Source: a bacterium
GTDB lineage: Bacteria; Thermosulfidibacterota; Thermosulfidibacteria; Thermosulfidibacterales; Thermosulfidibacteraceae
Length of the DNA: 14,075 bases
Assembly (NCBI GenBank): GCA_027022065.1
Contig: JALVZS010000027.1
Location: 1-14,075 of the forward strand
Reading direction: 5' to 3'
The notes beneath the pieces are model-generated. The model did not search any database. It was not told the origin of the DNA and worked only from the letters and a program-made list of their open reading frames with translations. Each line of letters starts with the position of its first letter. Position 1 is the stretch's first letter. Below are positions 3,532 through 12,450 of the stretch, in pieces. The position numbers and the translations under genes are program-made.

Positions 3532-4105
3532 TGCAAGAGGGCTTCCATGTCCAAAGCCTGTTCTCATGACCAAGGATGCGCTGGAGAAGGTAAGCGAGGG
3601 AGTGGTGGAAGTTTTGGTGGATAATGAGGCCTCAAAGGAAAATGTGAAAAGGTTTGCGGAAAAGCAGGGTTGCTGCGTTGAAATAGTGGAGGAGGATGGA
3701 TACTACAAGTTGAGGATTGCAAAGGGCTATGTTTGCTCCCGTGAGGCTCCGGAGGAGAAGCAGGTTGAGGGAAAGAATAAGGTTGTGCTTATCCTATCAG
3801 ACTCCATGGGCGAGGAGAGGAAGCTTGGTGAGCTTCTCATGAGGGCATTTTTGAGCACTCTCAAAGAGGCCACCAACAGGCCTAAAAGACTCATATTTGT
3901 TAACAGGGGCGTCTTTCTCACCACCGAGGGCTCAAAGGTTATAGATGTGCTTAAAGAGCTGGAGGATATGGGCGTAGAGATATACTCCTGTGGCACCTGC
4001 CTTGATTACTTCGGACTGAAGGATAAGCTTCTGGTGGGGAAGATCACCAATATGTACGATACCGTGGAGGAGCTTTTAAACGCCGATTCGGTGGTGAGAG
4101 TATGA
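3521..4105 (+). CDS. yedF: Selenium metabolism protein YedF (TusA-like plus DsrE-like)
   Basis: A 194-residue two-domain cytoplasmic protein. Residues 1-70 are a TusA-like domain with the chalcogen-carrying cysteine in ARGLPCPKP (C10). Residues about 86-194 are a DsrE/DsrF-like domain with [14 protein letters not shown] and a redox-type pair in SCGTCLDYF (C157, C160). This combination is the TIGR03527-type YedF, commonly linked to selenium metabolism. It would receive Se (or S) from the desulfurase encoded upstream and hand it to SelD downstream; the hand-over is inferred from gene order and family association. The ATG has a strong Shine-Dalgarno (GGGGAGGGGG, just upstream) and lies inside the end of the desulfurase gene. 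The TGA overlaps the true selD ATG (ATGA), so the two are translationally coupled. Confidence 0.93.
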
Positions 4106-5103
4106 AGGAGCCTAGGCTTACTGAGATGGTTAGGGCCTCCGGCTGAGGGGCCAAGGTGGGGCCGGCGGAGCTGGCCCGAATACTTGAAGGACTTGAAGTT
4201 GAAGCAGGCGAGGAGGTTATAGCAGGTTTTGGAGGATTTGAGGATGCTGCTGTTGTTAAGGTGGACGATTCCCTTGCCCTTATAGCCACGGTGGACTTCA
4301 TAACTCCTGTGGTGGACGATCCTTTCATCTTTGGGCAGATAGCTGCGGCAAATGCCTTAAGCGATGTTTATGCCATGGGAGGACAGCCTTGGTTTGCCCT
4401 GAATGTTCTCTGCTTTCCCTCGTGCATACCGGAGGGTTGGGTGAGGGATATTGTAAAGGGAGGGCTCTCAAAGATAAGAGAGGCAGGAGCATTCCTGCTT
4501 GGAGGGCACACAGTTGATGATACAGAGCCCAAGTACGGGCTTTGTGTTGTAGGAAGGGTTCATCCGGAAAGGGTAATAACAAATTCATCAGCAGTTCCCA
4601 GGTGTAAAGTATTCCTCACTAAGCCCATTGGTTTGGGGGTTGTTGTAACGGCCATCAAGGCACAGATGGCATCCTCCGATGTCGTTAAAAGGACGGTTGA
4701 TGTGATGACCACCTTAAACAAAGATGCGTCTATGAAGATGGTTGAAGCTGGTGCAGTTGCAGCCACCGACATCACAGGGTTTGGTCTTCTAGGCCACGCC
4801 CTTGAGATGGCAAGATCCTCTGGAGTGGATATTGTTATAGAGGCTAAAAAGGTTCCCGTTATAGAGGAGGCCTTTGAGTATGCCTCTATGGGCCTTATAC
4901 CTGCGGGAGCTTATAGTAACAGGGATTTCTGTTCAGGGGATGTGGTGTTTGAAAGGGATGTGGGGGATCTTGAAATTCTCATGTTTGATCCTCAAACCTC
5001 TGGTGGCCTGCTTGTGGCCGTTCCCTATGAGAAGGCCCATCTTTATCCCTACTGGGAGATAGGCTATACTGTTGAGGGAAAGGGAAAGGTGAGGGTGGTG
5101 TGA
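4102..5103 (+). CDS. selD: Selenide, water dikinase (SelD), selenocysteine-containing
   Basis: SelD makes selenophosphate from selenide and ATP, the selenium donor for selenocysteine and selenouridine synthesis. The real start is ATG 4102, overlapping the yedF stop. The frame meets TGA at 4144-4146 (codon 15) in the context [14 protein letters not shown], exactly where SelD has its catalytic Cys/Sec followed by the essential lysine (K18). Reading this UGA as selenocysteine gives 333 residues, normal for the family. A stop-based reading would instead begin at GTG 4156 and lose the active site. Further motifs: [11 protein letters not shown] (about 42-52), [50 protein letters not shown] and DPQTSGGLL. 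The second cysteine of the GCGCK motif of E. coli is alanine here. A SECIS hairpin follows the UGA. The 3' end abuts nadM (TGATG). Standard gene callers will probably truncate this gene. Confidence 0.95.
4144..4177 (+). promoter_or_regulatory. UGA selenocysteine codon with bacterial SECIS hairpin
   Basis: After the UGA (4144-4146), GGGCCGGC (4159-4166) and GCTGGCCC (4170-4177) form an 8-bp stem with one G-U pair, closing a 3-base loop GGA (4167-4169). Twenty bases separate the UGA from the loop, and the loop begins with G, matching what is known of bacterial SECIS elements that bind SelB (a G in the first two loop positions, loop roughly 16-37 bases after the UGA). The hairpin lies wholly inside the selD coding sequence. 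Confidence 0.85.
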
Positions 5104-8625: not shown

Positions 8626-9899
8626 TGAAAAGCAAAGAGCTTTTTGCAAAGGCAAAAAGGCTTCTCCCTGGTGGTGTTAATAGCCCTGTGAGGGCCTTTG
8701 GCTCCGTTGGGGGCGAGCCTTTCTTCGTTAGGGAGGGCAGGGGTTCCAAGATATACGATGTGGATGGAAACGAGTACATAGACTATGTGTGTTCTTGGGG
8801 GCCCCTTATTCTGGGGCATGCACACCCTGAGGTTGTGGATTTTGTTAGGGATGTGGTGGCAAAGGGCACATCTTTCGGAATACCAATAGAGCTTGAGGTG
8901 TCCATGGCAGAGGCTGTGGTGGAAGCTGTTCCCTCCATTGAGAAGGTGCGTTTCGTGAACTCAGGAACGGAAGCCACCATGAGCGCCATAAGACTTGCCA
9001 GGGGATATACCAAGAGGAATAAGGTGGTTAAGTTTGAGGGGTGCTACCACGGACATGTGGATTATCTCTTGGTTAAAGCGGGCTCTGGTGTGCTCACCTT
9101 TGGCATCCCTGGAACCCCTGGTGTGCCAGAGGACTTTGCAAAGCACACACTCATTGCCAGGTTTAACGATCTGGAAAGCGTTGAATCTCTGTTTGAAAAG
9201 TACGGGGAAGATATAGCCTGTGTGATTGTTGAGCCTGTTATGGGAAACGCTGGGGTTATACTGCCGGAAAAAGGATTTCTGGAGGGGCTGAGAAGGATCA
9301 CAGAAAAATATGGAGCCCTTCTGATATTTGATGAGGTCATAACGGGGTTTAGAGTTTCCCTTGGAGGGGCGCAGGAGCGCTTTGGTATAAAGCCTGATTT
9401 GACCTGCCTTGGAAAGATAATAGGTGGAGGCTTTCCCGTTGGTGCATACGGCGGAAGGACGGACATAATGGCACATGTGGCTCCAGAGGGACCTGTGTAT
9501 CAGGCGGGAACCCTATCGGGCAACCCTGTAGCCATGGCAGCTGGCCTGAAGACCTTGGAGATACTGAAGAGGGAGAATGTGTATCCCGTGCTTGAGAAGA
9601 GGATGGAGAGATTTGGTAGGGAGGCAAAGGCCATATTTGATGAAGCGGGGATTCCCGTTACCGTAAACAGTATAGCGTCAATGGGTTGTATCTTCTTCAC
9701 AGAGGGTCCTGTTAAGAGCTTTGATGATGCTGCAAAGAGCGATACAAAGATGTACGCCAGATTCTTCTGGGCTATGCTGAAGAGGGGCATTTATTTTGCT
9801 CCCAGCCAGTTTGAGGCGGCCTTTATCTCATGGGCCCATACGGATGATGACATAGATAGGACGCTGGAGGCCATGAGAGAGGCTGTAAAGGAGATTTGA
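8622..9899 (+). CDS. hemL: Glutamate-1-semialdehyde 2,1-aminomutase
   Basis: A 425-residue PLP enzyme converting glutamate-1-semialdehyde to 5-aminolevulinate in the C5 route to haem and other tetrapyrroles. Typical motifs: [18 protein letters not shown] (about 14-31), [45 protein letters not shown] (D237), the PLP lysine in [17 protein letters not shown] (K265) and [10 protein letters not shown]. Length is normal. The ATG at 8622 has GGAGGG seven bases upstream inside the dGTPase gene; a second ATG follows at 8625, and a TTG at 8607 is open but unlikely. It is near the end of the long operon, twelve bases before the slipin gene. Other haem genes are not in the window, so the placement looks like operon packing. 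Confidence 0.96.
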
Positions 9900-10707: not shown

Positions 10708-10753
10708 GCCTCAGTTGACTGGTAGCTTCTTGCCTGTTAAGTAAAGGGCGGGG

Positions 10754-11022
10754 ATGGAAATGAGATTGGATAAAGAAACAAGCAGGATTTTAAAAGATTT
10801 AGTGAGACTGAGCGCTGTGGGAATGGAGCTTGCCGTATCCATTGTTATAGGTTTAGGCATAGGCCTGTTCATTGATAAGAAGCTTCATTCCTCGCCCTGG
10901 GGGATGCTGGCTTTTTTATCCTCGGAATTGTAGCAGGGTTTAGGGTGGTATTTAAAGAGGTGAAAAGAGGAATAAAGAGAGAGGATGGTGGCGGAAGAGC
11001 TGATAAAACGGATGATCAATAA
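10754..11022 (+). CDS. atpZ: AtpZ (AtpZ/AtpI family), reading frame interrupted by a -1 shift
   Basis: A small two-helix membrane protein of the kind encoded at the head of F-type ATP synthase operons. From ATG 10754 (or 10760; GGGG just upstream) the frame encodes a soluble start, then [20 protein letters not shown] (about 23-41) and the family's SPWGM, but stops at TAG 10931-10933 after 59 codons, in the middle of the second helix. In the -1 frame from 10918 the missing half is intact: [18 protein letters not shown] and a charged tail to TAA 11020-11022, giving 89 residues in total. The join is at TTTTTTA (10912-10918), read in the zero frame as T-TTT-TTA, a classic -1 slippery heptamer. 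It may be programmed frameshifting, transcript slippage, a real inactivating deletion or a base-call error in the T-run. The restored frame overlaps atpI by 38 bases. Confidence 0.75.
10912..10918 (+). other. U-UUU-UUA slippery heptamer in atpZ
   Basis: The seven bases TTTTTTA sit in the zero frame as X-XXY-YYZ, the pattern on which tandem tRNAs can slip back one base; the same heptamer is used by HIV-1. GGGGGA (10899-10904) lies 7 bases upstream and might act as a weak Shine-Dalgarno-like stimulator. I found no strong stem-loop just downstream. Slipping here restores the full AtpZ frame. Confidence 0.5.
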
Positions 11023-11338
11023 AGGCGCTTTTCTGGTTTTTGCCTTCGCCTTTGTGGGGGCTTCCTTTGGGAGGTCTGATGTTTTTTTGGGGCTTACAGT
11101 GGGAAGCCTCATGGCTTATCTGGACTTTTTAGTTATATGCTTTCTCAGCAAAGACATACTTGAGCTTCGCTCAAGAGGGGTATTCTTTGGAATTCAGATG
11201 TTTAAGTATCTGGTGATGGCGATTGTGCTTGGGGTCCTTTTCTTTTACAAGGTTATAAATCCACTTGCCACCGTTATAGGGTTGAGCTTGATTACCATAA
11301 TCCCGTTTGTGGAGTTTTCAAACCTGAAGAACATATAG
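10985..11338 (+). CDS. atpI: ATP synthase subunit I-like membrane protein (AtpI)
   Basis: A 117-residue protein with four predicted membrane helices: about 14-30 ([15 protein letters not shown]), 34-54 ([20 protein letters not shown]), 68-87 ([20 protein letters not shown]) and 90-110 ([19 protein letters not shown]). The size, topology and position between atpZ and atpB fit the ATP synthase I protein family (Pfam ATP-synt_I), thought to assist c-ring assembly. Sequence motifs are weak in this family, so context carries much of the call. The ATG at 10985 follows a purine-rich AAAGAGAGAGG; an internal ATG at 11012 would shorten the overlap with the -1 frame of atpZ to 11 bases. Eight bases after its stop comes the ribosome binding site region of atpB. 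Confidence 0.8.
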
Positions 11339-11348
11339 GGAGGGCGGT

Positions 11349-12011
11349 ATGTACGAGCCTTTTGTGTTAAATCCTCTTCCCCATAAGTTTTTCCATGTGG
11401 TGCTTTCTATATATGTTTCCTTAATTCTAATCATTCTGGCGTATCTTGGGACCAGGAAGCTTTCTTTGGTGCCTTCAGGGCTTCAGAACTTCTGGGAAAT
11501 ATATGTTGAGGGCATGTATAAGTTCATGGACGATATTATCCCTGGGGATGTGAGGCCCCATGTACCGCTTATAGCAACCCTATTTATCTACATCCTCTTC
11601 TGCAACTGGATGGGAAATGTTCCGGGCTTCATCTCTCCCACGAGCAACTGGAACACCACCATAGCTCCGGCCATTGTGGTTTTCTTCTACTACCACTACT
11701 GGGGAATAAAGAAGCACGGACTTATCAAGTATCTTAGGCACCTTGGAGGGCCTGTGTGGTGGATGGCTCCCATGATGTTTGTTCTGGAAACTATAGGTCA
11801 CTTTGCCAGGGTACTTTCACTTTCCGTTCGTCTTTTTGGGAATATTATGGGAGAGGAAACTCTTGCTATTATTATGTTTTCTTTGGTACCTTTGCTAATT
11901 CCTGTTCCTCTTATGTTTTTATCTATATTTTTTGGTTTTATTCAGGCTCTTGTATTTACACTGCTTTCGGTTGTTTATATAGCTTTAGCTGTTGAAGAGG
12001 TGGAGCACTAA
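11349..12011 (+). CDS. atpB: ATP synthase F0 subunit a
   Basis: The 220-residue a subunit forms the proton half-channels next to the c-ring in the cytoplasmic membrane. The essential arginine is R161 in [32 protein letters not shown] (about 84-100), [12 protein letters not shown] and [23 protein letters not shown] (C-terminal, with Q199) are standard family segments. The protein is mostly hydrophobic, with five to six helices, and of normal length. The ATG has GGGAGGGCGG just upstream. It follows atpI by 10 bases and precedes atpE by 23 bases. Genes for b, delta and F1 subunits do not follow, so they must lie elsewhere. Confidence 0.96.
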
Positions 12012-12034: not shown

Positions 12035-12400
12035 ATGCTGAAGAGAGTGGTTAGGACAGGACTTATGACACTGGGAGTCGCTTTATTTGCCGTGCCCGCT
12101 TTTGCTGCTGGTGATGCAGAGTTGAAGATAGCGGCTCTCAACATGCTTAAGTATGCTGCCATTGCAGTGGGATGGGGTCTTGGAATCGCTGCTGGTCTAT
12201 GTGGCCTTGGTCAGGGATTAAGTGTTAAGGGTGCTATGGAAGGAATTGCCAGGAACCCTGAGGCTTCTGGTAAAATCCAGGTGTCCATGATTATTGGTCT
12301 TGCCATGATTGAGGCATTGACCATTTACATGTTAGTTGTTGCTTTGATCGTGCTGTTTGCCGATCCTTTCAAAGCGGTTGCTTTGGTTGCTGGGCACTAA
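12035..12400 (+). CDS. atpE: ATP synthase F0 subunit c with N-terminal signal-like extension
   Basis: The 121-residue c subunit forms the rotor ring. The hairpin consists of a first helix (about 33-68) with [14 protein letters not shown], the polar loop ARNPEASGK (72-80) and a second helix (82-109) carrying the ion-binding glutamate E93 in [10 protein letters not shown]60 is present, but the residues after the glutamate are A-L rather than the S-T of well-known sodium-binding c subunits, which favours protons. Residues 1-24 (KRVVRTG, hydrophobic core, VPAFA) look like a cleavable signal peptide; Aquifex aeolicus is known to have such an extension. The mature protein would be about 97 residues. 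The start has AAAGGAGGGTG upstream. A strong terminator follows. Confidence 0.95.
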
Positions 12401-12418
12401 GTCTTTTTGCTAAAATAG

Positions 12419-12450
12419 CGGGAAGGGAAGTGTTCCCTTCCCGTTTTTTT
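12419..12450 (+). terminator. Rho-independent terminator after atpE
   Basis: CGGGAAGGGAA (12419-12429) and TTCCCTTCCCG (12433-12443) form a perfect 11-bp stem with loop GTG, followed by seven T (12444-12450). It ends the F0 operon and separates it from rex. Confidence 0.95.

Follow-up and report, generated by a model that had tools for sequence, protein, structure and literature searches.

Introduction

To our knowledge, few bacterial housekeeping genes have a conserved -1 frameshift, among them dnaX, chelatase and some others. In dnaX, E. coli employs ribosomal slippage at A_AAA_AAG and Thermus employs transcriptional slippage at a run of nine A; the slipping machine, ribosome or RNA polymerase, differs between the lineages. 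The atpZ gene described here resembles bacterial dnaX in having a conserved -1 shift at a homopolymer-like site, by which one gene would give a long and a short product. Unlike dnaX, atpZ has a U-run, encodes a tiny membrane protein and shows neither a recognisable stem nor any consistent stimulator of Shine-Dalgarno type, and it is the long form, not the short form, that would need the shift. The likeness to prfB (RF2) lies in a full-length conserved protein reached only via a shift that the majority of a lineage, though not every member, possesses; however, the RF2 shift is +1 with autoregulation at UGA, and no such feedback is evident for atpZ.

Homopolymer recoding in an ATP synthase gene has been described as the chloroplast atpB correction of Oenothera I-iota (PMC8254509), a rescued mutant with an A-run in the beta subunit gene, whereas the atpZ break is conserved and natural. 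The -1 frameshift gene clusters of GeneTack likewise consist of frame transitions that evolution has conserved at heptamers of poly-A/T, where all seven consensus heptamers are A-rich and the main text is silent on ATP synthase (PMC3711429). As in Bacillus pseudofirmus OF4, the atpZ considered here lies directly upstream of atpI in the atp operon and encodes a small hydrophobic protein, but the OF4 gene is described as an ordinary one. In an alkaliphilic Bacillus, Mg2+ acquisition has been connected with AtpZ (PMC4453477). Published frameshifting of atpZ or of an F0F1-ATPase subunit was not found in the open-licence literature.

Results

The two frames of atpZ. The window, a stretch of 14,075 nucleotides, is contig C27 of genome G000 (1.57 Mb, 251 contigs, 88% complete); its relevant features are collected in Table 1. 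A first-pass annotation of this DNA held that the zero frame of atpZ stops mid-helix after 59 codons and that the -1 frame encodes the missing half. Both points were borne out: the 0 frame breaks off inside helix 2 and ends at TAG 10931-10933, and the -1 frame past the break (TTT ATC CTC GGA ATT GTA GCA GGG TTT ... TAA, ending at 11022) supplies the second membrane helix. Against Pfam PF09527 (cut-off 26.6 bits) the 0-frame product alone scores 44.2 bits over profile 2-40, and the fused protein scores 64.8 bits over profile 2-53 of 54. By hydropathy profile the fused protein has two hydrophobic stretches or helices and the short form one. With its full-length PF09527 match, two helices and adjoining atpI and atpB, the fused form has the attributes of the AtpZ family.

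Table 1. Features of the atpZIBE region, in window coordinates
Feature	Position	Strand	Remarks
Promoter-like pair TTGACT-N17-TAAGTA	10715..10743	+	Just upstream of atpZ; putative, from recurrence by eye in relatives
atpZ, 0 frame	10754..10933	+	ATG 10754; product of 59 aa, comprising TM helix 1 and a truncated TM helix 2; TAG 10931-10933
GGGGGA, possible Shine-Dalgarno-like stimulator	10899..10904	+	7 nt before heptamer; weak
Slippery heptamer T_TTT_TTA, predicted shift site	10912..10918	+	Same heptamer at homologous codon in G002; T9 in G005-G008
atpZ, -1 frame after predicted shift	10918..11022	+	Rest of TM helix 2 and charged C-terminus; TAA 11020-11022; homologous part in G005-G008 under purifying selection
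atpI	11012..11338	+	ATG 11012 overlaps -1 frame stop (ATGATCAATAA); weak PF03899 match, just below cut-off
atpB (subunit a)	11349..12011	+	PF00119, E 1.8e-53
atpE (subunit c)	12035..12400	+	PF00137, E 1.5e-14
Terminator-like stem after atpE	12417..12445	+	Likely end of atpZIBE

Read in codons from ATG 10754, the 0 frame runs CTG GCT TTT TTA TCC TCG GAA TTG TAG. The six T at 10912-10917 and the A at 10918 form T_TTT_TTA in X_XXY_YYZ phase, and the phasing for tandem -1 slippage proposed in the first-pass annotation is correct. The change of frame must fall in 10879-10931 (the last -1 stop ends at 10878, about 17 codons before the 0-frame stop). The other genes of the window contain 18 in-phase X_XXY_YYN heptamers in 4127 codons, giving about 0.08 expected in the break stretch; alone this is a weak argument, because homopolymers also attract deletions. 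In-phase T_TTT_TTA occurs in none of those other genes. Without regard to phase the bare heptamer is common (3 in the window versus 4.4 expected), so evidence resides in phase and conservation and not in the motif itself. A second in-phase heptamer, T_TTT_TTG at 11083-11089, lies inside atpI, where the frame is unbroken.

Elsewhere in the window, in selD (4104-5103, with an ATG in the 4102-4104 region), an in-frame TGA (4144-4146) occupies the catalytic Sec/Cys position, and the ORF caller begins this gene too late, at GTG 4156. It appears to be a selenoprotein gene. Together with atpZ, the window thus holds two likely recoding events.

Shared breaks among relatives. The lineage is one order, the sole one of its phylum in the genome set, and is represented by nine genomes, eight of them with atpZ; the ninth (G001, 71% complete) has neither atpZ nor atpB. 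In six of the eight, atpZ is broken at the same codon column, each time with a slippery run. G002, from the window's family, reads GGT TTT TTA TTA TAG in the 0 frame, and its -1 frame restores ...GFLIIGVASGFYS. Four members of another family (G005, G006, G007 and G008) read GCT TTT TTT TTG TAG, that is, GC-T9-G followed directly by TAG, and their -1 frame restores, for example, ...AFFFVGVASGFY. Comparison of the heptamer among related genomes, as the first-pass annotation had suggested, places T6A (G002) and T9 (G005-G008) at the same codon, and the fused proteins align gap-free across the junction. Divergence between the two families is large, since AtpB identity is only about 70%. The five broken relatives derive from separate records and projects and different assemblers. 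Putative public records for six relatives are JALVKL01 (G002), WFSL01 (G004), JAJSAC01 (G005), JALUVF01 (G006), WFSI01 (G007) and QMPS01 (G008); they are labelled 'Aquificota bacterium', 'Thermodesulfobacteriota bacterium' or 'bacterium' and stem from several projects and assemblers.

In G003 and G004, atpZ is uninterrupted at the break column. Close relatives of this kind had been named beforehand as evidence against a shift, and to that extent these two genomes count against it, but they are only two of eight and the other six are broken. G004 and G007 belong to the same genus, the former intact and the latter shifted. Two histories would account for this: an old shift with later loss in G003 and G004, or repeated gain at a Phe-Phe codon pair; an AtpB tree built for the order of gain and loss did not settle the placement of G003, G004 and G007 and did not separate single from repeated gain. 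The uninterrupted G003 gene (L046 4440-4460) has no in-frame ATG, GTG or TTG after the upstream stop (...TAA GGA AGG CTT GAG GAG AGG GTA ATC GCA...), and perhaps uses a rare ATC/ATT-type start or contains an upstream error.

Selection past the break and a control set. Among G005-G008, dS on either side of the break runs from 0.4 up to saturation, and dN from 0.04 to 0.22. Past the break, the -1 frame gives a dN/dS of 0.09-0.11 where computable, and the same changes read in the 0 frame nearly all alter the amino acid. An 18-base block around T9, TGGCTTTTTTTTTGTAGG, is invariant in these four genomes; elsewhere in the gene 40% of third positions before the break and 27% after it are invariant. 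The T9 is kept intact even though silent TTT-to-TTC changes could break the run. Runs of nine T are rare, at most a handful per genome, but one stands at this codon in each of the four genomes. Three attributes of a programmed -1 ribosomal frameshift coincide here: X_XXY_YYZ in phase within the frame overlap, conservation in divergent relatives and selection on the shifted frame.

The control comprised 386 genomes, 230 of them with a PF09527 match; nearly all matches were listed, three weak ones excepted. Among the matches listed, a stop inside the PF09527 match was found in none of about 222 genomes outside the lineage, and all but one (G009) of these extend to profile position 47 at least. 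Broken genes of the lineage have matches cut at positions 40-44 or containing a stop. Error or decay as a general cause is disfavoured because control genomes are without such a break. G009 was considered as a further broken atpZ and rejected, its match being degenerate and uninterpretable. A degenerate AtpZ-like stretch in this unrelated genome (L124, G009:C85:73252 downwards) also has GGCTTTTTTATATC and is too broken to interpret.

Operon layout. Whether broken or uninterrupted, atpZ ends its full frame at the atpI start in each of the eight genomes. In G000, G002 and G003 the stop overlaps that start by 11 nt, counted from the A of the ATG to the end of the stop codon; in G004-G008 the stop codon ends 4 nt ahead of the ATG. 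The 0-frame stop is situated about 80-90 nt upstream of the atpI start. An alternative in-frame atpI ATG at 10985, upstream, is a less likely start. Ahead of atpZ, TTGAC followed about 17 nt on by a T/A-rich hexamer recurs by eye at the same place in relatives; a strict promoter consensus scan did not pick up the pair at 10715..10743.

Stimulators and slippage context. Near the shift site, the broken genomes have no stem or Shine-Dalgarno-like element in common. Folds of the 50-80 nt after the site revealed no consistent downstream stem or pseudoknot across genomes, with stems in G002 and G007 only. GGGGGA is present in the two T6 genomes (window and G002) and missing in the T9 genomes, and it is weak as a stimulator because WGM codons account for its bases. 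A terminator-like hairpin before the T-run is strong in the window only and is not conserved. General frame sloppiness at T9/A9 runs was considered and rejected; other T9 sites include A9 runs in long intact frames, where routine slippage was unseen. A run of 21 T near a contig end (G000:C119, about 8812-8832; L109), far longer than the lineage's other T-runs, is possibly an assembly artefact.

Discussion

Homopolymers are prone to insertions and deletions in both sequencing and replication, and the named relatives are metagenome-assembled genomes, so an error of sequencing or assembly, or the recent loss of one base that made atpZ a pseudogene, has to be weighed. This was the main rival named in the first-pass annotation, as a deletion or error in the T6 run, and it has become very unlikely: five further genomes have their break at this codon too, the -1 part is under purifying selection, the T-run is invariant despite saturated synonymous divergence, about 220 genomes elsewhere, many likewise fragmented, are without such a break, and T6 is a poor spot for short-read indel errors. 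Phase variation, in which changes of tract length would switch full AtpZ on and off within a population, is scarcely more credible. T9 is a mutable tract and the on-state length is one base away, but the four T9 genomes share one phase, a tract as short as T6 would seldom vary, and accessory ATP synthase genes are not typical phase-variable loci. Least probable of all is a split gene encoding separate N- and C-terminal proteins, or stop readthrough to an AtpZ-AtpI fusion. Helix 2 is itself interrupted by the break, and no start codon of the -1 part would yield a whole helix. Readthrough of TAG into atpI gains something from G005 and G006, whose 0 frame is open into atpI after the TAG; it was rejected since the open link is interrupted in G000, G007 and G008 and is not conserved. 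Because the breaks are shared, selection is kept and about 220 outside genomes are intact, error, pseudogene decay and phase variation fit poorly and recoding fits best.

We therefore favor conserved -1 recoding at the U-run as the probable source of full-length AtpZ, a two-helix membrane hairpin of about 89 aa, as judged from comparative sequence data. Against it stand the uninterrupted genes of G003 and G004, by which a shift is not required in the lineage, the lack of a conserved downstream stem or upstream element, and the relative shiftiness of U_UUU_UUA, the HIV site, which is shift-prone but in E. coli falls well below A_AAA_AAG (PMC5009743). If recoding does occur, RNA polymerase might slip instead of the ribosome, adding one U or dropping two in the T-run, with the full frame in some mRNAs and ribosomes never shifting. 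Four relatives have exactly T9, and bacterial transcription is known to slip where nine A or T follow one another (PMC5009743); transcriptional slippage runs are given as Tn with n>8 (PMC3711429). The hairpin ahead of the window's T-run also points this way. But the window and G002 have T6 then A, under the usual lengths, and the hairpin is not conserved, and we consider transcriptional slippage unlikely, though the most substantial of the alternatives and a serious one for T9. Ribosomal -1 slippage is compatible with both site types, T6A and T9, and the ribosome is the better candidate for the slipping machine.

In ribosomal recoding, tRNA-Phe and tRNA-Leu on U_UUU_UUA would re-pair one base back, as would Phe/Phe and Phe/Leu pairs on the U9 run of relatives, and the ribosome would continue in the -1 frame. 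Unshifted ribosomes would stop within 1-5 codons, yielding an AtpZ of 56-59 aa without the second helix. Conservation is lacking in the 0-frame tails (SSEL, L or nothing), which makes a function for the tail of the short form doubtful, and short AtpZ may be a by-product. Shifted ribosomes would terminate on the atpI start or 4 nt before it, and unshifted ones at the 0-frame stop upstream. Coupling of AtpI to the shift is a natural inference because frame-shifted ribosomes alone would end at the atpI start; the shift would probably set the level of full AtpZ, and from this stop/start layout we tentatively suggest that it might also set the translationally coupled level of AtpI, a role somewhat short of an even chance.

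Automatic annotation of genomes of this lineage likely calls a false, truncated atpZ. A case in an ATP synthase operon, with a U-run and not an A-run and kept across an uncultured lineage, would widen the list of conserved -1 shifts. The shift could even be a regulatory valve, its efficiency following cell state (e.g., Mg2+) and setting AtpZ, AtpI via coupling and hence c-ring assembly; such a phylum-wide device, which would be the first recoding switch in an ATP synthase operon, is a speculative and rather improbable extension. If true, it would link decoding to ATP synthase assembly.
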